Shown here: one piece after another, positions 580-62,976 of the stretch
Layout of the letters: every line of letters begins with the position of its first letter
How positions within the stretch are numbered: position 1 is the first letter of the stretch
NCBI GenBank assembly: GCA_018389105.1
Contig: JACATO010000653.1
Span: 124,001 to 188,000 of the forward strand
Length of the DNA stretch: 64,000 nucleotides
Source of the DNA: Nautilus pompilius
Taxonomy: Eukaryota; Mollusca; Cephalopoda; Nautilida; Nautilidae
Direction of reading: 5' to 3'
The notes under the pieces: generated by a model
The model's input: only the letters and a program-made list of their open reading frames with translations
What the model was told of the DNA's origin: nothing
Databases searched by the model: none
Position numbers and translations under genes: made by a program

Positions 580-3500
580 AAACTAGGAATTCTACAAGTG
601 GGTCAACAGCTTGTTGACTATTCACAGTTTGATTACATCTTCAAGAATGGTAAGCCCAACGATTTTCTGATGTAGAATGCAGAAACAAGGATTGTTTGTT
701 TGTTTTTTTTTAACCAGCAAAGAAAAATGACAAATGTAAATCTCTCCTATATTATCAACAAATTTCCTGCAGAAATGCACAATTTTTGTTGTTTTTTAAA
801 GGAACAGAAGATTAGCTGACTGAATTTGTTTATATTTCAATATAAGATGGCGTGTAAAAGCTAGAAACTGACCTTTGAAAGAGCATCGTTATAAAGCACA
901 TCTGGTTGCAGGTATCATCATTATTTTACAATAAAGATGTTGCTTAACTTTTGGGTAGCTTAATTGTGATGTCTATAATTTCCCCCTGTTTGGATGATTT
1001 ATTCACCACTTAATGATGCTCACAAAATTTTGAATGCACATTTGTCATATCATCTGTCATTCCTCTTCAAAGTCTAAGTCATATCAGCATTATTCTGAAC
1101 AGGAGGATTCCTCCTTTCTACATTAGATGTGATTCCAAAAATGCTTACTGATTCAAATTGGGACTCATAACAGGAGGCCAATCAAGGAACCTTTTTGCAT
1201 TAGCCTGAAGATATTGCAGCCACAGGTGAGGTCTGGTGGTGGTGTTCATGAATATTGGTTTATTGGTACAAGGAACAATGATAGCTCAAGAATGTTTTCA
1301 TGGTATTGTTGGAATTTAGGTTTCTAGGCTCAGTATCAAGATCAAGTTTGCAGTTTTGAGATACACATCTTCACACCATGATGGATCCACAACCCAGAGC
1401 TTTCTCCCTTTGTTGCCAAACTTTCATTTGGCCATTGCAGTGACGTCTATCAGACTAATGTACTCTCCTTCAAGTCCTCAAATTCTGCCAAAATCATTGA
1501 CTGGTTCAAGTCTCTTGAACAGTTTTGACAAACTTGCTAGTTCAGCAGGGGTTCCTCAGTTAAATATCATTGATGAAGAACTTGGTGCATTTCATGAATA
1601 TCTGCTTGGTCTTCTCTAGTCATGGTTTGACAAGGGCATCAAATACTTTGTCAATAAATGAATGATGACAGACTGGTACATTTAAAGCTGCTTCTCAGAG
1701 TGTCTCCATGAAAGTCTAGTATTTTTCTTCAATTATCTATCATCTCTCGGTTTATGAGTAGTATGTTTGTGCAGCACTTGAACACACACAATGTTGTATA
1801 TCTACATCTGCTACTATTTATACTACTTAGAACGTGTATAGATGATGACGACATACTTTATTTTCCTAAAGCCAACTACTATACATGCTTATAATCAAAA
1901 TGTTCCGAATGCACAGGGCAAGTATGAGAGTATAAATAACACAAAGCTTTGACAGGATTTCGCTAAATCATGAAAATGCTTTATTGCTACATTTTTCTTA
2001 GCTTATGTGAAAGAAAATCTGGTGGTGAGATGTATACTATAAATAGACCATTTCATCATCCAAAACTTCTGAGCAAAGACAGTGATTTAAACTGGAAATT
2101 TAAAAAAATTCCTTTTCACATTTGGAAATACACTTAAGGTACTTTACTTGTCCTTCAGTGAATTTCAGCCAATCATTTACAGGACTCTTGAAATAATGGA
2201 TCCAGCAGGGTGTAACTGTCTATCAACTTCTCATTCCATGTATAAACTTCTAAGCCAGACACATTTGATGCTCTCTTCTTTTTCTTTTCAAGATGATAAA
2301 CCTCTGGTTTTCGTTGTTTCCACAGTTGATCTTCCTAGTATAATATATATTAACATGTACTAGGGATGTTCAAATAACGGTAACTGGCTTGGCTCCATTT
2401 AAACATCCCTAGTACATTATTTCTCTCTCTTTTCTTGTAACAAAAAGTTTCAGTTTGATAGAATTTGCTTCCATCCTATTTATAGTAATTCCTGAATTTG
2501 AATCCAAAAAAAAAAAAAAATTATTGGAGTGCATCCATTTATCTCAGTATTTAAGATTTACAACAAATTTAACCCGGTTTCTACTAGTTCATTTGTTTTT
2601 TCACACCTACAATTGGCAGTTTGATTGTCACATTTAACCAACAATCTGCCAAGTGAAATTCAGTGTCACAAGTGCAAGCGTGTTGGTGGATTTTGTCATA
2701 TTAGCTCTGATGTAACGTGTAGAAGAAGAAAGGGTTTCAAGATTTATTGTTTAAAAAATATTAAAATATCAATTTCATTAAGGATAGAAAGTCTTGAAAA
2801 GTGTAAAGGTAATGAAGAACACCAGGTACAATTAAAGGTACCTCGACCAGAAGAGGATTCCTACCTTCAGTCAGTTTTGTATACAAAAGAAATGATGCTA
2901 TTGTTGTACAGTTCTTACCATATTGTTTATCTATTGTTTTCCGACAGTTTGGGCAGACAATGCTGATGTGCTTTCTAAGCAGTATGCAGGAACTGGGGCT
3001 CTGAAGACAGACTACACCAGGTTAAAATGAAAACTATCTATATTTATAGCAAGCATTTAACTATAATTCAATGCATTGCTTCCACCCCAACCCGACCTCA
3101 GATTTGGCCTGCCTTCTAGACTCAAGGAAGATGAATTCAAGACAACTATACCAAATTAAGATTTGTCTGACGTTTAAAAAGACTCAAAAAGAAAACATTC
3201 AGCCTTATTATGTCAAAATGAAATTATCTTTTCTACTGTTTATTTAGTTCAGTGATGATGGTAATATTAATACAAACAAAATCTTGGTCAAATTAGACTT
3301 GACTTGATTAGATTGTCTGAAATTTTGTTCGTCTCAGGAATTCACTCATCTACTAAATGTTACGAACTTACATTACTCTACTTACCTGGTAATGCAATTT
3401 TCTTTATTTCATTTATTTATGGATAAAATTTTTTTGATGCCAAAAAGTTTGGGCTGTTTCCTAAATTAATCAGATATTTTTGTGTGGATGGGGATGTTTA

Positions 3501-6500
3501 GGTGATTACAGTAGCTTAGTGAAAACTTGTTGAAGTAAGAAGAGTATAAATGTCAAATGATGTCCAACTGACTCAACACATGTTCCTAACATCTGCAAAG
3601 TAGAAGGAAATTCTCTTTGGTTTGTATGTTTCTAAGAAAATTAATACAGTAATTTTTAAAATCTTTTGTTACCTTTTCTGCCATAGGACAGGAAAGAGAA
3701 CGAAAATGGGTTTAATCATGGATGGGATGAATGCAACTGTACGCTACTTCAAGAATAACTTCAGAGATGGCTTCCGACAAGTAAGTAGCATGCTTAGTCT
3801 GCATTTTTACTGGAACTTTCATATGTGCTTCCTTTGATAGTGGTACACATGTATAGATGCTACTGCTTAAAAGTTTGTGTTAATTTTAACTTTTTATATG
3901 ATATTGTGCATAACATTAGAATCAAATGTATTTTATGGTCAGATATCTGTTTGTGTTTGGAATTGTATCAAAATAAATGTTATGGATCATAGACTCATCT
4001 GGAAAATCTGTAATAGTCTGTAACCAATGGAAATTAAGTATTTTATCTAGAAATTCCTATGTTGTTGGTTACAACTACTTATGTGATTTCTTTTAACATA
4101 GAAGTCTATATATTCTATTTAAAAATTAGTGAAAGTATTAATACAAGTCTGAATGAATGGCTTAAGGAAGAGATGATGGTAAATAAGGGCTATGGGTACA
4201 CTGACAAATGATGGAATATCCAGCAAGAAAAGTAAGGGTATCATTGAATGGAGTTGCTTATACAATACTGCACCTCAAAAGAACTGGTACCAATCTTGGC
4301 CATAGAAGAATAGGAAGATAAAAAACAAGTTTTCTATCAAATCATCTACTCTGTGTCCATGGTAGAGTGAATGAACATGTGCCACAAGGTTGTATTGTGT
4401 CTACTATCAGGCATTAAGGAGGAAAAACAATGGTCTGGAGTGGTTTTGCTGGTAACAGAGTCACTGATCTTTATAAAACTGAGAATACCCTAAACAAGTA
4501 AGAGCCGTGCCATTGGGTTTTATGCTTGGTTGGTCAACAATTTACCTTAAAACAAGACAGTAAGTCAACTCTTACATTGGAATTAAATAAAAATCAGCAG
4601 GATGTGGTTCTTATTGTCATGGAATGACCATCACAGTCACCAGACTTAAACCACATTGAAATCTTATGGATAGAAGAGCAAAAGATAAACAACCACCTGC
4701 AGCTGAGCTGTTGTGCCAGTTCTTACTGGAGATTTTAAGTGCAGTATCAAAATACTATCTCATAAAATTATTTGGGAAACTTCCAAGAATTTGTCGGGCA
4801 GTGATTACAGCAAAAGGAGAATGTGTTGTTGAACCAAAAGTATGGAGTCTAGATCATAATAAAATACATATTAGATTATTAAACTTGTTAGATACATTAT
4901 CAACAGTACATTTTAATTGTTTGAATTATATTTTTGCTATTCAATAGCTAACAGATTACATATCCACTAAAATTTAAAATTACTGTATTGTACCCAAACT
5001 TTTTAGTGGTAGTATGCATGTATATATTTTTTCTTTAAGCTGTCTATATTTATTATTATTATTATTATTATAAGCTAAAATATTTTGATTATATATATAT
5101 ATATTATTGTTAATACTGACAGGGAGAGAAATACTTCAGGTAAATTTAAATAATTTATTGGATTGGTTAGTAAAGTGGATACGCAGACAGTAAGGATTAT
5201 TATAAATCTAAGTAAAAACAGGAAAACCAAAAGGTATTGGTTAACACAAGACCAAAAAAATTACAAAAAAAGAATGAACCTGGATATTTCAAACATGTTC
5301 ATTTCTATCTACAATAAAAAGCCCTCCAACGTAGCAAAAGTAAAAGTATTGCTGCGTGCTTTAGAAGCACAAGTTAATACAGTCGCGCCCCCCCCCCCCA
5401 TTGCAGTTCAGCATTCGCGGCCCCAGTTATTCGCGGAATTTTCCTTAGAACCTAACTAATAATTGTTCGTGGAAACCCCCACATATTTGCGGAATTGCAA
5501 ATATCTTCCGCGATTTTTTAATGGTTTTTTTGTGGCAATATATATTTTTTCATGCTTTTAATACTAAATTATTAATAACAATATAATATACTAATTTTGT
5601 AATATAAATACTAACGTAAATTCAGCAAAATATCAATATAAAATAAACGCTATTGGCTGGAGGTTTGAAAGTAGCCAATCCGAGAGCGTTACTCATTTCT
5701 CCTCGCTGCTGATTGGCTGCTGCCCACGAAGTGCTGTCTCAGGCAGATGCAGCCCAGCATCATCCCAGTTTACCGCGTGTAGCTATCTCGAGTGTTTCGC
5801 TGAGTGTTGTGTTTTTTATTAAATTATTATTATATATTTACTTATATTTTACGTTATATTTTGACGTTTATAGGCATTTTTATGGACCATGTCCGATATT
5901 CGCAGTTTTTCACTCTTTGCGGGTGCTCTAAGAACGTAACTCCGACAAATACCGGGGGACAACTGTATAATAAATGGAGTAAAGCTTTGCATACAGTTTT
6001 TTGAAAGGCAGGAAAATAATAAAGAAACAAGATATTTCATCATTCAGAACAGGTTTGAAATGTTTAATCCATAGAGATTCTGTGAGTTGTATCTTGAAAC
6101 CATTAACAAAACTGTTAATGAGCAGAATAAATTAACAGCAAGTGTAGTCAACTAAAGGTCCTATTTCATTGAGTGAGCTAAAATCCTCCAGTTCAACAAA
6201 ATTTCTCCTGGAAATGAAAGTTGTAAGAATATGCTGTAAATAGCCAACCGTTTAAAACATCTATAAGACGCACTTCTCGTAATCCAAAGAAATGTTATTT
6301 TTCCATAAATACGGCTTAGCAAATAGATTGGATTTTTATAATTTATTCTTGTTTAATTTATTCCCTTTTAAGGATCACCAGTCTGGGGAAGCCTTCTAGC
6401 ATTGAAAAAGGGGTTGAAAAGGTAGCTATTTAAGACAAACCATTTGTTTGCTGAAACTGTGTTTAAAGTTGGATTTTTCTCAGCCTTAATCAGAACCAAA

Positions 6501-13303: not shown

Positions 13304-42533
<29,230 letters not shown>

Positions 42534-50300: not shown

Positions 50301-53300
50301 CAGCCTGTAGTCAAATGATGAAAAGTGTTTGTGTAGTCTGTCAAGGATCTCATGGTTGTAAGAATAAACTCATCATAGCAGAAACAACATACTACCTTGT
50401 ACTGCCAATTCCTATTCATTCATAATGTTGACACTTCTGCAGTCAGGTAAATACCAATAACCAAGACTTGTGGATAATTTTTGTTGTTATCCTGGGAACT
50501 AAAATATCCTCAGCCTTAAAAATTTTGTTTTTTTCTTCTTCAGAGAACCAGTAAAGGATCTTGCCAGCTGTAGCAGATGCTAACTTTACAGAAGAAAGAT
50601 GCAGCACCAGTAGCTGACTGATTTTAACTCCTCTGGTTCTAGACAGATAAAAACTGAACTCTTCACTAGGTCAAATATTTGCTTACTTGCTTTAAACATT
50701 TGCATCTACTACTGTACCTCAGAAATGGCCAGACCTCTTTTTCGGATAATGGCTTCCATTTTCTCTGCTTCAATATTCCGAGCCCCACACAAGTTGTTGA
50801 TTTCTTGCTCTCTGATTCTCTCCTCACGCTCTTTTTCTTCCTTTACTTTCTTCTCCTGAAATATTAATCCTACAAGGTTAAAAGTTGAGACTGGAGTTCT
50901 ACCAATCTTCTCCAGCTGCAATGCTTCACCATTTGAGAGAGATTCCAACTCTCAGACATTCCACTTGCAATAAATAAAATCACTTAGCATTCAAATGGTT
51001 CTGTCAATAACAAAACTAAACACCAAAATCAGCCAGTGCTATAATAAATATACGAGGGTGTTTCACAAAATAAAGGCAATGCTGCCATGTACTTGAATGC
51101 ATCCTCCTGTTCACACATTTTTTTGCATTTGTGGTATCAGCGAGCAAGTAAACAATATGGCTGGGCAGTTGTAGGTGCGCACAGAGCAGAGCAGTAATTA
51201 TATTTTGAGGGCCAAAGGTATTTCACTGATTGAAATTCACCAGAGAATGCTGGTGCAATATGGAGAAAACTGCATGACAAAAAAATGTACAAGTTGGTGC
51301 ATAGGTTTAAAAGTGAACTAATATCAGTAGTGGATGAAGATCAACCAGGATGGCTCAGCAATGCCAATGACAAGGTCTTCCAATGCAGCATGACAATGCA
51401 ATAAAACTTTTGCTATGGTATGGATCTTGCCCTATCCCTCTTTGGACCCTAAAAAGATGCTCTCTGAGATTGAAGATTTGTCAATGATCACGAGGACCAG
51501 CTTATGTAGCAACCAAAAAACATCTGCCAGAATGGTAACAAGAAACTTGTGAGTTGTTAGACTGTGTTGAAAATCAAGGACTCAGTAGAGAATGATGCAC
51601 CAAATAAATGATATGACACTTGTTTTATTTATGAATGGCCTTTATCTGAAGCATCCTTGTACACACTAGTATAAAGCCAAAACCTCCATTATTCAAATTA
51701 GTGAAAAAACACAGAAGACTAAATAATGCTAGTTAGGTTTAATGATCATGCACATTAACTTTGGGAATTAAACAAATATTTCTAAGATTTAGTGCGGAAA
51801 GTATTTTTTTTATTATACTTCAGAAATATACAGCTAATTTCGAGCAACAATACCTGGTTTTGTTTCCAAAGCAAACTTCCATCAAAAATAAATAATTTGT
51901 GTATTGAATCTGTCAGTCAGTCAGCTAATTACTGACTTAGTACACACAAGACCTGCATTTTTTTCAAGAAATTTTAAATTAAACTAACAATAGAAAAATT
52001 CAGTGATGTCAGGACCCATACAGCAGCACAACTGTGATTCAGTTGCTGGTCTTTTTAACAGGAGACAGACCGTTCATGTGCTTGAAAAGCTAAATTCAAC
52101 AAACTTCCTCCTGAGATGATGACATATGGGTCATTCCACGTCAAGTGGACCAGTGGTCAACACCCGACCCCCTCAGAAATATTTGTAAAGATATATGTTG
52201 TAGTAGAAGCTTTTAGAATTCTAAATGTGAAATCTGAGCATCTTAAGTAAAAAATTGACCAAGATATCGTCATTTTTCTGCATAGCCCCCTTTCAGACTC
52301 AAAAACATCATTAATTTTCTTCCATTTATCCCTACATTTTTTTTTACTATTCCTGTTGGGCTGCAGATACCTAATTTTGCAGTCTGGAAGAACATTTTAT
52401 GTAGATTATGACTATGCATTTTGTTTTTCTGCATCTCTTAACCCTTTCCTGTCAGCACTTTGCAAAAGTGAGAAAAAATTTGGTCTCCTTTGTTTTTTGG
52501 CATTTTTGGTGGCTTCTTAGAGTACCTGCTGTACCACCATCCAGAACTGTGCAAATTGGATTTTCAGTATATGATTAGGCATATAAAGACTAGAAAATAA
52601 CATTGTGATGATATGAGTGATATCCCCCAAGATATTAATAATTAGTCAGCGAGGGACTCAACACCTTAATGTTTTCATTACAAATATAATCTGTGGCTGC
52701 CACCACAACAGGCTGCCTCATCATCATGCCAGTCCGCGAATCCGATGTGGTACATGCTCATTGATATTACTCACCAATCATCAAATGATGTCATCCAATG
52801 ATCATCTAAGGGTAGGGTGTATGGGCATAGTGTTAGTCCGGCACAGGGCACAGGTGCATTGACTTTTGGCCTACTTTCATTTTTTTCTGACCATTTATTA
52901 ATTCTGTGCAACTTGATTTGATAGTCAAGGAAGATGGAACAGTGTACAATAGGAGCGCAACTTGGAGAAACTTGTCATAGTAGACAATTCATACGGACAT
53001 GTGGACTGATACAGTTTGCTGAATTAATTTAGAGATAGAAGCCTACTTCAGTTGTGTACAGGAAAGCAACTGAACCAGGAATCGACAACGGTGAGTCACC
53101 ATCATAAGAAACTGTACATTTCCAAATACGAGTCTTAGCACAAAGAAGTGCGAGGATCCATTTAAATGTCATAAATCAAGAGTAAAAAGTGAGTAGCATA
53201 ATTTTCAATCGTTTTCATGTCTTTGCACATTTACTGAATGATTTTAGCAGTGCTATTTGAAAGGTCTTTCTTTGTTCTTTAGACTAGAGTTAATGATTTG

Positions 53301-56300
53301 AAGAATATACTTTTCAGAGGACCTAAGGGCAATTGATTCTGAACTGGCTGAATCTATGAATTACATCGTTAAGCCCAGACAGAAACTATGCAAACACTGT
53401 ATAGAGAAAATGGAATCTTTGACTCCTGAAGTATGAGCATCCTACTTGCTTATTGGGTCATATGTGACCGGATGACCTGGCCAGCTAGCTGATAAAGCTG
53501 CTTTTTCTATGATCTTCGAAGACAATTTGCGAAGAAACTGTAGAGGGAATCACTTTATTTAATATATTCATAATCTACTTAAAAAGTTCTTTTAGACTGA
53601 TGATATTGACCATCTTGGTGCAAAAAGTAAGGATTTCTTTGCAGCATACGAAGATGCAACAATGCATGATATTGCCAAGATGCACAAAAAAAGATGGCAA
53701 AAATAAAAATAGAAGCACTTGAGTGCCAGAGCTTTCATTTGCAATAAAAATTAATCTTGTTGACATTGTCTGACATGGCCAAATTGGCCATTTTTCCATG
53801 GGAAAGCAAGTTCAGACAGATATATCTTGGGGGATATCACTCATATCATCACAATGTTATTTTCTCAGTTCTGGATGGTGGTACAGCAGGTACTCTAAGA
53901 AGCTGCCAAAAAACAAAGGAGACCAAATTTTTTCTCACTTTTGCAAAGTGCTGACAGGAAAGGGTTAAGAGATGCAGAAAAACAAAATGCATAGTCATAA
54001 TCTACATAAAATGTTCTTCCAGATTGCGAAGTCAGGTATCTGCAGCCCAACAGGAATAGTAAAAAAAAATGTAGGGATACATGGAAGAAAATTAATGATG
54101 TTTTTGAGTCTGAAAGGGGGCTATGCAGAAAAATGACGATATCTTGGTCAATTTTTTACTTAAGATGCTCAGATTTCACATTTAGAATTCTAAAAGCTTC
54201 TACTACAACATATATCTTTACAATATTTCTGAGGGGGGGGGGGTCGGGCGTTGACCACTGGTCCACTTGACGTGGAATGACCCATAGGAAAGTCCTTTTT
54301 CTTTTAAAATATTTAGATTAAATTAAGTCTGTATAAGGAGAAAATTGTCTACAATCTGAGAGCAGTATTATTGGCTGTCATAACCCAGATGGTAACCAAC
54401 CCTACTCTAATGAATGAATGTTAAACATTGCGTTTTTTGGAGTTTATATTTCCATATTCCAAACACACCTATGTAAATATAATCAGATGGCAATAACAGA
54501 TGGCAGACAGCATTAGCAAAGCAAAAATCTTATGTAAAGAAGCGTTCTTACTGAATAAATTGTTAATTATTGATTCTTTCCTTTGTGTAAGGCTGTCTTT
54601 GTATCGTGTGTTTATCAGCTTACAGATGAGTTGTAAATGGTCATAAAATAGCAATCAAAGTTCCATGACAATAGGACATGGCAATCAATTTAGTATCTGA
54701 AGCACATTTTTGCCATCCTCACTTACACTCTAGAGATTATAACAGTAATTGCTGCTGCAAATAAATACCAAACTTATCCATGTTTTTCAGCAACAAGAAA
54801 AACTCAATCTCTTCATCTGGTTGACTGAAACTGGCAGAATCAATGATCAATAGTTATCATAACGCAAACTTAATTTCCTGGCCTGCTAATGGAGTTCATT
54901 TAGTTAAGTCTTTTGACAGATTGTTTATCTGTAAAGAAATGAGTAACTGAAAAAAAGAAAAATTCTCACTATTCCTGCTTCCCAATCACTATTTGCTGTT
55001 CATGTTTATATCTGTGTGGTTGGCAATCAAGCTGCTCCTAGACAGCATGATTGATAGCAGTCACAGGTCAAAATGGAATTCACAGATCTTCAATACATCC
55101 TCAAAAAAATAAGAAGGGACCGGGATACAGAGTTTCTAGAATGGCAGCAAAATAATGAGGTAGGAGCTAACTTTAAACACTTGACAACATTTCTCCATGG
55201 AATATAGAAAATAGCTTTTAGAAATTTTAATTAGAATCCATTTAAGCTGGTTTATGGTATTTATTTTAAATGTTTTAAGGCAAAGAGAAAATTCTGCACA
55301 GATCATTTATCCACCATCTCATTTTTGGTGTGTCTATAAACATTTTAAGGCAAGCATACAATAACCCTCAAATATTTCCTCTCCAGTCAGCTAACTAATA
55401 AAATAACTAGTTGTATATCTTCCACCATAAAGTGATTAAATAAAATATACTTTTACCATAAAATTGGTTATTCTAAGAATATATTTTGTATTCAATCAGT
55501 TAATGAGTGCTGCTCGACCAGGACCCAACTTCAGAAGTACAATTGGTTTATAGGGATAAATACCAAGAAATATACACACATACACCAAATACAGTTTGGG
55601 TTTCAATGAAAAATAAACAGAAAAAAAAACTGACCTCAAAACAGTTTCAGAAAAGAATCTTTGGAGAATAATTAAGAATAAGTAAGCTGTAATGCATCAG
55701 GGGAGAGACAAGCATGATTTTATGATCAAAATAATTGTGCACAAGGCCAAGTTCAGCAAGGTTCCACAGTTCCTAGAACAAACACAGATATAGGCCAATT
55801 AGTCTAACATCAGTGATAGGGAAACTGCAAAAGTACTTGTATCGAATGATGTTGAAATTAGATTCGGTAATTCTCTGAAGTTTGCTGTGGCACTAAATTA
55901 TACAGCAGACTAGCTAATAATAGTATGTTAACTTATTTAAAAAATCTTAACATATAAAATAAATTTGCAAATGTAAAATGCAGTTTAATTTTCCAAAATG
56001 TATAAATTTATATTCCAATAATACTGTTTACATTTATCAATTAGAAAATAGTAAATTATTTTATGTAGAAGGTTTTGAGAGTTTATTGTGGCTAATTCTC
56101 TGGAAGGTCAGAAGCAGAGACAACTGTGGGCAGTAGAATGTGCAGCTATGCAGGCCCTATATTAACAAGAGAGTACAGAGATATTTTACCTGTTTGAAAA
56201 GAGGTATGAATAATTATAGCCATCAAGAACTAAAACTACCAAAAATTGTCCAGTTTAGTGTGCTGGTGTCAGCAACACCATTCTGGACTATTCCAACCAT

Positions 56301-61427: not shown

Positions 61428-61747
61428 GTTAATAGAATTTAGTGACAATTGACTTCTTTGTTCAGGTTTAAAGTCCGATCCACCTTTTCACCAACCCTTC
61501 CAGATACTAATTATTCTCTCTAGTTTTAGAGAGCTGGAAAAATGGTGGGTGTGTTTCCGGTTTTTCGATCTTTAACATCTTGATTTCAGTACGTAATCGA
61601 AGGCGATATTTGAGCTACATGCCATCCCTGATATCGTCGGGAGGCTTTCCTTCAGAATCTATGCTTTAAAAACAAATTTTTGTTGAAGCCTGAAGCAGGC
61701 AGATCGCCGATGCTGGGGGCCGCTTTGGGGGATCTTAAGTAAAGCGG

Positions 61748-62976
61748 AAGATAATGGGGCCGGTCCCTTCTCGTCAAAGCTCGATGGTGCTAACCGCTGC
61801 AGCCTGGAGGATAATGGGGCCGGTCCCTTCTCATCAAAGCTCGATGGTGCTAACCGCTGCAGCCTGGAGGATAATGGGGCCGGTCCCTTCTCATCAAAAC
61901 TCGATGGTGCTAACCGCTGCAGCCTGGAGGATAATGGGGCCGGTCCCTTCTCGTCAAAGCTCGATGGTGCTAACCGCTGCAGCCTGGAGGATAATGGGGC
62001 CGGTCCCTTCTCGTCAAAGCTCGATGGTGCTAACCGCTGCAGCCTGGAGGATAATGGGGCCGGTCCCTTCTCGTCAAAGCTCGATGGTGTTAACCGCTGC
62101 AGCCTGGAGGATAATGGGGCCGGTCCCTTCTCGTCAAAGCTCGATGGTGCTAACCGCTGCAGCCTGGAGGATAATGGGGCCGGTCCCTTCTCGTCAAAGC
62201 TCGATGGTGTTAACCGCTGCCAGCCTGGAGGATAATGGGGCCGGTCCCTTCTCGTCAAAGCTCGATGGTGCTAACCGCTGCAGCCTGGAGGATAATGGGG
62301 CCGGTCCCTTCTCGTCAAAGCTCGATGGTGCTAACCGCTGCAGCCTGGAGGATAATGGGGCCGGTCCCTTCTCGTCAAAGCTCGATGGTGCTAACCGCTG
62401 CAGCCTGGAGGATAATGGGGCGGTCCCTTCTCGTCAAAGCTCGATGGTGCTAACCGCTGCAGCCTGGAGGATAATGGGGCCGGTCCCTTCTCGTCAAAGC
62501 TCGATGGTGCTAACCGCTGCAGCCTGGAGGAGCGGGATAATGGGGCCGGTCCCTTCTCGTCAAAGCTCGATGGTGTTAACCGCTGCAGCCTGGAGGATAA
62601 TGGGGCCGGTCCCTTCTCGTCAAAGCTCGATGGTGCTAACCGCTGCAGCCTGGAGGATAATGGGGCCGGTCCCTTCTCGTCAAAGCTCGCCGCTGCAGCC
62701 TGGAGGATAATGGGGCCGGTCCCTTCTCGTCAAAGCCGATGTTGCTAACCGCTGCAGCCTGGAGGATAATGGGGCCGGTCCCTTCTCGTCAAAGCTCGAT
62801 GGTGCTAACCGCTGCAGCCTGGAGGATAATGGGGCCGGTCCCTTCTCGTCAAAGCTCGCCGCTGCAGCCTGGAGGATAATGGGGCCGGTCCCTTCTCGTC
62901 AAAGCCGATGTTGCTAACCGCTGCAGCCTGGAGGATAATGGGGCCGGTCCCTTCTCATCAAAGCTCGATGGTGCTA
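61748..62976. repeat. 60-bp GC-rich minisatellite, 21 copies, upstream of OTUD6B
   Basis: The word ATAATGGGGC recurs every 60 bases from 61751. The unit continues CGGTCCCTTCTCGTCAAAGC, TCGATGGTGCTAACCGCTGC, AGCCTGGAGG. Variant copies include single-base indels near 62221 and 62420, a 6-base insertion near 62531, and two 49-base units lacking ATGGTGCTAAC (near 62690 and 62860). Copies are otherwise almost identical. Because 60 is a multiple of three, several frames stay open across the array on both strands. That creates frames of 318 and 199 codons that I do not regard as genes. The sharp GC contrast with the flanks suggests a recent local expansion. Confidence 0.97.

Follow-up and report, generated by a model that had tools for sequence, protein, structure and literature searches.

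What kind of element carries two long, almost identical arms in opposite orientation, and what has kept those arms alike, are the questions raised by a locus in the third intron of an OTUD6B-like gene of Nautilus pompilius. The locus lies in a 64,000-nucleotide stretch of contig JACATO010000653.1 (assembly GCA_018389105.1, positions 124,001 to 188,000 of the forward strand; herein referred to as the window, to which all coordinates given without a contig handle refer). The element spans 52128-54283 (2,156 bp) and begins GGGTCATTCCA; its arm at 52128-52635 is an inverted copy of the arm at 53822-54283. The close match of the arms described in an initial annotation of the stretch is real: aligned locally, the outer 440 nt are 98.1% identical (8 substitutions in 419 aligned bases, with 3 gaps), and with gap columns included BLAST yields 93.2% over 453 columns (15 mismatches). 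We conclude, with a probability of about 0.85, that this is a non-autonomous copy, shortened by internal deletions, from a multi-copy family of cut-and-paste DNA transposons, and we favor homogenization as the reason why arms within one copy resemble each other so closely.

The family was delineated in the assembly to which the window belongs (727.6 Mb in 2,558 contigs). A query of the outer 201 bases of the arm returned 275 candidates, the best 40 of which share 88-100% identity, and the 24-base end occurs 180 times (94 forward and 86 reverse, allowing at most one mismatch), against no occurrence of the reversed control. Because this end recurs throughout the genome, the element belongs to a dispersed family and is not an assembly fold-back, and many copies with common ends, which the initial annotation had named as support for a transposon family, do exist. 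The ends and flanks of 25 end pairs (13 from short flanking sequences and the full-length copy, 10 from the loci located initially and the window, and 2 from a duplicated locus on C2021) place the termini precisely: most begin with GGGTCATTCCA, a few having single-base differences, and the outer end of the family's terminal inverted repeat (TIR) reads GGGTCATTCCAYRTCAARTGGACC. The four bases flanking the element on either side are identical in 18 of the 25 pairs and differ by at most one mismatch in 23 (exact in 16/23 once L022/L023 and the C2021 loci, each seen twice, are counted singly), whereas left and right ends mispaired between different copies agree in 50 of 600 cases. Identity over two bases is found in 11/25, over five bases in 0/25 and over six bases in 2/25, both within ATATAT. 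The exact words from independent insertions are ATAT and TATA (four each), TTAA (three) and ATTT, AGTG, CATT, ATAA and TATT (once each); only C573 and C1061 carry two or more mismatches, and the left end of C1061 is decayed. The target-site duplication (TSD) is thus 4 bp long and is not the dinucleotide TA, which had been proposed as the duplicated target and is part of the 4-bp word. Likewise, the arm ends had been read as TGGGTCA/TGACCCA next to TA; TA does adjoin the arms, but the element starts at GGG and the outermost T/A belongs to the TSD.

Two members of this sample, C2021:3757174 (L021) and C2021:4900197 (L020), have identical 30-base flanks and lie 1.14 Mb apart on one contig, as either a segmental duplication or an assembly duplicate. 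Four further loci (L048, L049, L075 and L076, on C1386 and C640) form a related transposon lineage whose transposase is approximately 40% identical; the word on either side of its C1386 copy does not resemble the AT-rich ones of the window family. Lineages were sorted by identity only.

These data bear directly on three other readings of the locus. A Tc1/mariner-type element with a TA duplication and unusually long arms would account for the TA adjoining the window arms, and Tc1-like fragments are indeed present in the genome, such as the frame at L035 (HTH_Tnp_Tc3_2, E-value 0.0014; DDE_3, 0.021; both below curated cut-offs); yet two-base identity is rarer than four-base identity (11/25 against 18/25), flanks of TTAA, ATAA, TATT, CATT or AGTG on both sides are incompatible with a TA duplication, and four transposase frames searched against Pfam up to an E-value of 10 (HMMER filters drop most rows above 0.1) yielded no such row, so that this reading is scarcely credible and the element stands apart, as the initial annotation had supposed, from the mariner fossils nearby. 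Insertion specific to TTAA, as by Kolobok (described as TTAA-specific in the part of PMC9587614 that treats it) or piggyBac, is somewhat better placed but still very improbable: TTAA is present on both sides in 4/25 pairs (three independent insertions) and the ends begin GG, in the manner of the 5'-RR ends of Kolobok, but most exact duplications are other words, chiefly ATAT and TATA, the related-lineage copy on C1386 has AGCT on both sides, and no piggyBac match was found in Pfam. Long, near-identical inverted arms would, taken alone, also fit a fold-back of the assembly, which the initial annotation had kept as a caveat, or an inverted duplication that arose just once; this is excluded for practical purposes by the numerous dispersed copies, which have common ends, different flanks and mostly their own short duplication. 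Between the window arms themselves there are substitutions, and the inner left arm has suffered a deletion. A TA duplication, a TTAA-specific Kolobok or piggyBac element, mariner, and a single copy or fold-back were rejected on these grounds.

The organization of the transposon copy in the window, as read from its flanks and from comparison with a full-length copy on contig C339, is as follows:

52124-52127, no strand: left copy of the TSD, ATAT, read from the flanks.
52128-52634, plus strand: outer part of the left TIR, ~507 bp; the inner part is gone through a private deletion.
52634, no strand: junction j1, where ~548 bp are absent relative to full-length C339.
52634-53433, plus strand: 5' part of the transposase transcription unit, with 90% identity to full-length C339.
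53140-53188, plus strand: end of putative transposase exon 1, with a CEDPFKxHKS motif; the frame is broken here and the exon is a reading of the sequence.
53189-53317, plus strand: candidate GT-AG intron of the transposase gene.
53318-53433, plus strand: start of transposase exon 2, EDLRAIDSELAES...KLCKHCIEKMESLTPEV, truncated by deletion j2.
53433, no strand: junction j2, where ~2,183 bp are absent, comprising most of exon 2 and the entire catalytic domain.
53559-54283, minus strand: right TIR, the inner part of which (53559-53821) now has no partner in the window copy.
53564-53599, minus strand: 36-nt subterminal repeat unit, with further units at 52380-52415 and 53991-54026; possibly a transposase-binding repeat.
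54284-54287, no strand: right copy of the TSD, ATAG, with one mismatch, read from the flanks.

The interior of 1.19 kb had been taken to be unique throughout; however, 53559-53821 is inner right arm, left without a partner because its left counterpart was deleted.

The full-length copy (C339:496040-501044) measures 5,005 bp and has TIRs of ~800 bp, its arms matching at 99% over 789 alignment columns; the 43 bases at the very ends lie outside that match and are more divergent, and the outer 440 bases give 97.0%. It contains one transposase frame, from ~1,360 to 3,995, split by a candidate GT-AG intron of 129 bp whose removal joins CEDPFKRHKSRVK with DLRSIDSELAES. The expectation that an intact copy would reveal the transposase is therefore borne out as regards the gene, which is itself decayed, with three stops in exon 2. 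The predicted protein would comprise ~770-835 residues (~746 from exon 2 and some 20-90 more from exon 1, the start codon not being fixed) and has the motifs DFAENYSF, FSDGxxxQYKN and SHGKxxCDGxGG, an N-terminal Cys/His motif and a C-terminal beta-rich domain. A model of moderate confidence has the RNase H (DDE/D) topology, with Mos1 among the rows of the structural comparison, and suggests an RNase H-like DDE/D core with D60, D144 and D185 as candidate catalytic acids; the third is D in most alignment rows. Between the second D and the last acid, where Kolobok transposases have a C/DxxH motif, there is no clear CxxH, the conserved stretch reading NLCFH, NLCRH or NLTHH. A single-sequence structure prediction (predicted local distance difference test, pLDDT, 33.8) was discarded. 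Searches of PDB sequences with the protein and with alignment A3 returned one chance-level row each, no relative was confirmed in viral contigs, prokaryotic genomes or phages, and a literature search with the end strings retrieved no transposon paper, as judged by title and the start of the abstract.

Other copies indicate how the window copy was shortened. The six copies besides the window that were aligned to C339 are internal deletions with the same layout, some lying in the opposite orientation, and copies other than C339, judged by their end coordinates, span 835 to 4,959 bp. Relative to C339 the window copy has lost ~548 bp at j1, from the inner left arm and the sequence next to it, and ~2,183 bp of the gene at j2. 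The breakpoints share only 1-2 bases, which would be in keeping with end joining in the course of gap repair. When 120 bases across j2 were used as query, 26 of the best 40 of 83 matches run through the junction, namely the window and, at 86-96% identity, 25 other places, and 14 end at the breakpoint, including the transposase-bearing C339, C2007 and C1807; among the best 40 of 290 matches to a query across j1, the window alone spans. Both counts are lower bounds, such that at least 25 other places carry j2. It follows that the shortened form was itself copied, presumably with transposase supplied in trans; j2 marks a form that multiplied after the transposase was lost and that needed the enzyme of other copies. 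The j1 deletion, by contrast, is private to the window copy among the matches listed.

The arms were compared pairwise in nine copies with two long arms, C568a being added and C2021, C875 and C2034 excluded; copies represented by their 70-base ends only fall outside this comparison. Within-copy identity ranges from 94.1% to 99.8% and between-copy identity, over 144 comparisons, from 88.7% to 94.3%. In 9/9 copies the nearest arm is the partner, the best foreign arm reaching 92.8-94.3%; the margin is narrowest in C1807 (94.1% for the partner, 93.4% for a foreign arm). A prior alignment that combined 11 copies placed the partner nearest in seven of the eight long-armed copies. There the window itself was unclear (91.2% within-copy, its left arm being nearest to C2034 at 91.7%), which we ascribe to misplaced gaps, and C2021, C875 and C2034, in which one arm is mostly absent, gave 58-63% within-copy. 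Arms that evolve independently along a lineage would differ within a copy at least as much as between copies; the data therefore point to homogenization, which may have acted in the source elements ahead of transposition or at the insertion site later on. Of the two explanations offered initially for the match of the arms, recent insertion or homogenization, the latter is thus favored; the window copy carries a TSD mismatch and a private deletion, and both speak against its having inserted very recently.

We propose that the transposase of the full-length form would bind the terminal repeats and excise the element, which would then reinsert at AT-rich, often palindromic 4-bp targets that are duplicated in the process. 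Two deletions have cost the window copy its catalytic domain and a portion of one arm. The form with the larger deletion would have spread by mobilization in trans, the smaller deletion is private among the matches listed, and some mechanism of homogenization would have held the arms within each copy alike.

The gene that surrounds the element is taken to be OTUD6B-like. It lies on the minus strand, with exon 3 at ~57.0 kb and exon 4 at ~50.8 kb (both located through translated motifs and judged by eye); the exon 4 frame has no match in Pfam. Elsewhere, the window contains an exon resembling lysyl-tRNA synthetase at 35.8-36.1 kb (Pfam tRNA-synt_2, 7.2e-21), a 65-bp tandem repeat of 27 copies at 95% identity (29799-31569) and a 60-bp tandem repeat of ~21 copies (61746-62976), the latter upstream of OTUD6B-like exon 1 and open in several frames. 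A decayed minus-strand frame at 26917-27309 resembles, by eye, the end of a mariner transposase and has no Pfam match. Nearly identical frames at 5595-5822 and at 2637-2879 of L012 represent another dispersed repeat, inserted in one transposon copy. The genome also yields 61 COI-like matches, many with internal TGA and TAA (with a mammal-like query, the best is 69% over 84 residues, and one 29-residue piece reaches 76%), which look like repeated mitochondrial fragments in nuclear copies; they hint that the host is an invertebrate.

The superfamily to which the transposon family belongs is a separate matter, and Sola is its probable home. Sola elements have DDD transposases, 4-bp duplications, TIRs of 11-1,124 bp and lengths of mostly 2-9 kb, according to the section of PMC10741241 devoted to them; the portion of PMC3627910 on Sola2 elements of two amoebae gives the AT-rich duplications ATAT, AAAT and ATTT and one transposase of 888 residues, and Sola is reported in teleosts (PMC4746887) and bivalves (PMC10294476). 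We use the name as a probable one because TSD, arm length and element size fit these descriptions. Some room, though clearly less, is left for an element of the same DDE/D cut-and-paste kind in a superfamily that is unnamed or other than Sola, for example Academ. Consistent with such an assignment, none of the frames scanned matched at curated cut-offs in Pfam (nine frames) or NCBIfam (four), four frames gave chance-level rows only in PHROGs, and a literature search for strings such as DFAENYSF and SDGAASQYKN found no occurrence. Pfam may, however, simply contain no Sola entry, and the TSD length, AT-rich targets, TIR and element lengths and mostly-D third acid agree with what the cited sections of PMC10741241 and PMC3627910 describe. 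That the transposase motifs and the end GGG(T/G)(C/T)ATTCCAYGTCAARTG define an unnamed DDE/D superfamily, with at least four identity groups in this genome, is a more doubtful proposition still.

In all likelihood this is an ordinary cut-and-paste family, probably in an already named group, and its interest is chiefly for element classification; were the transposase not Sola, it would represent a DDE/D group absent from the protein libraries searched. Knowing what the element is, where it truly ends, which targets it duplicates and which relatives are coding makes it possible to annotate the many related copies in the genome. The family also makes a good case for arm homogenization, with one deletion derivative in at least 25 other places and arms that remain alike while the copies drift.

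Foldback-type and other long-TIR elements (Galileo, FB, MULE) have very long, variable and internally deleted arms. The present family resembles them in its very long, internally deleted arms; its 4-bp TSD, however, differs from the 7-12 bp duplications given for MULEs in the relevant part of PMC10741241. With Tc1/mariner it shares a predicted RNase H-like DDE/D core, Mos1 being among the structural rows, although its arms greatly exceed the ~30 bp that PMC10741241 states for plant members. Kolobok is similar in its 4-bp duplications, some of them TTAA, and in ends that start with purines, but TTAA is a minority word here. In the Fanzor-carrying Sola2 elements covered by that part of PMC3627910, the TIRs are 12-21 bp, against ~800 bp in this family. 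The likeness to Sola as a whole lies in the AT-rich 4-bp TSD and in a length of 5,005 bp and arms of ~800 bp that fall inside the reported ranges, a loose criterion that many families pass; a DDD-type RNase H core, as the model may suggest, would agree as well.
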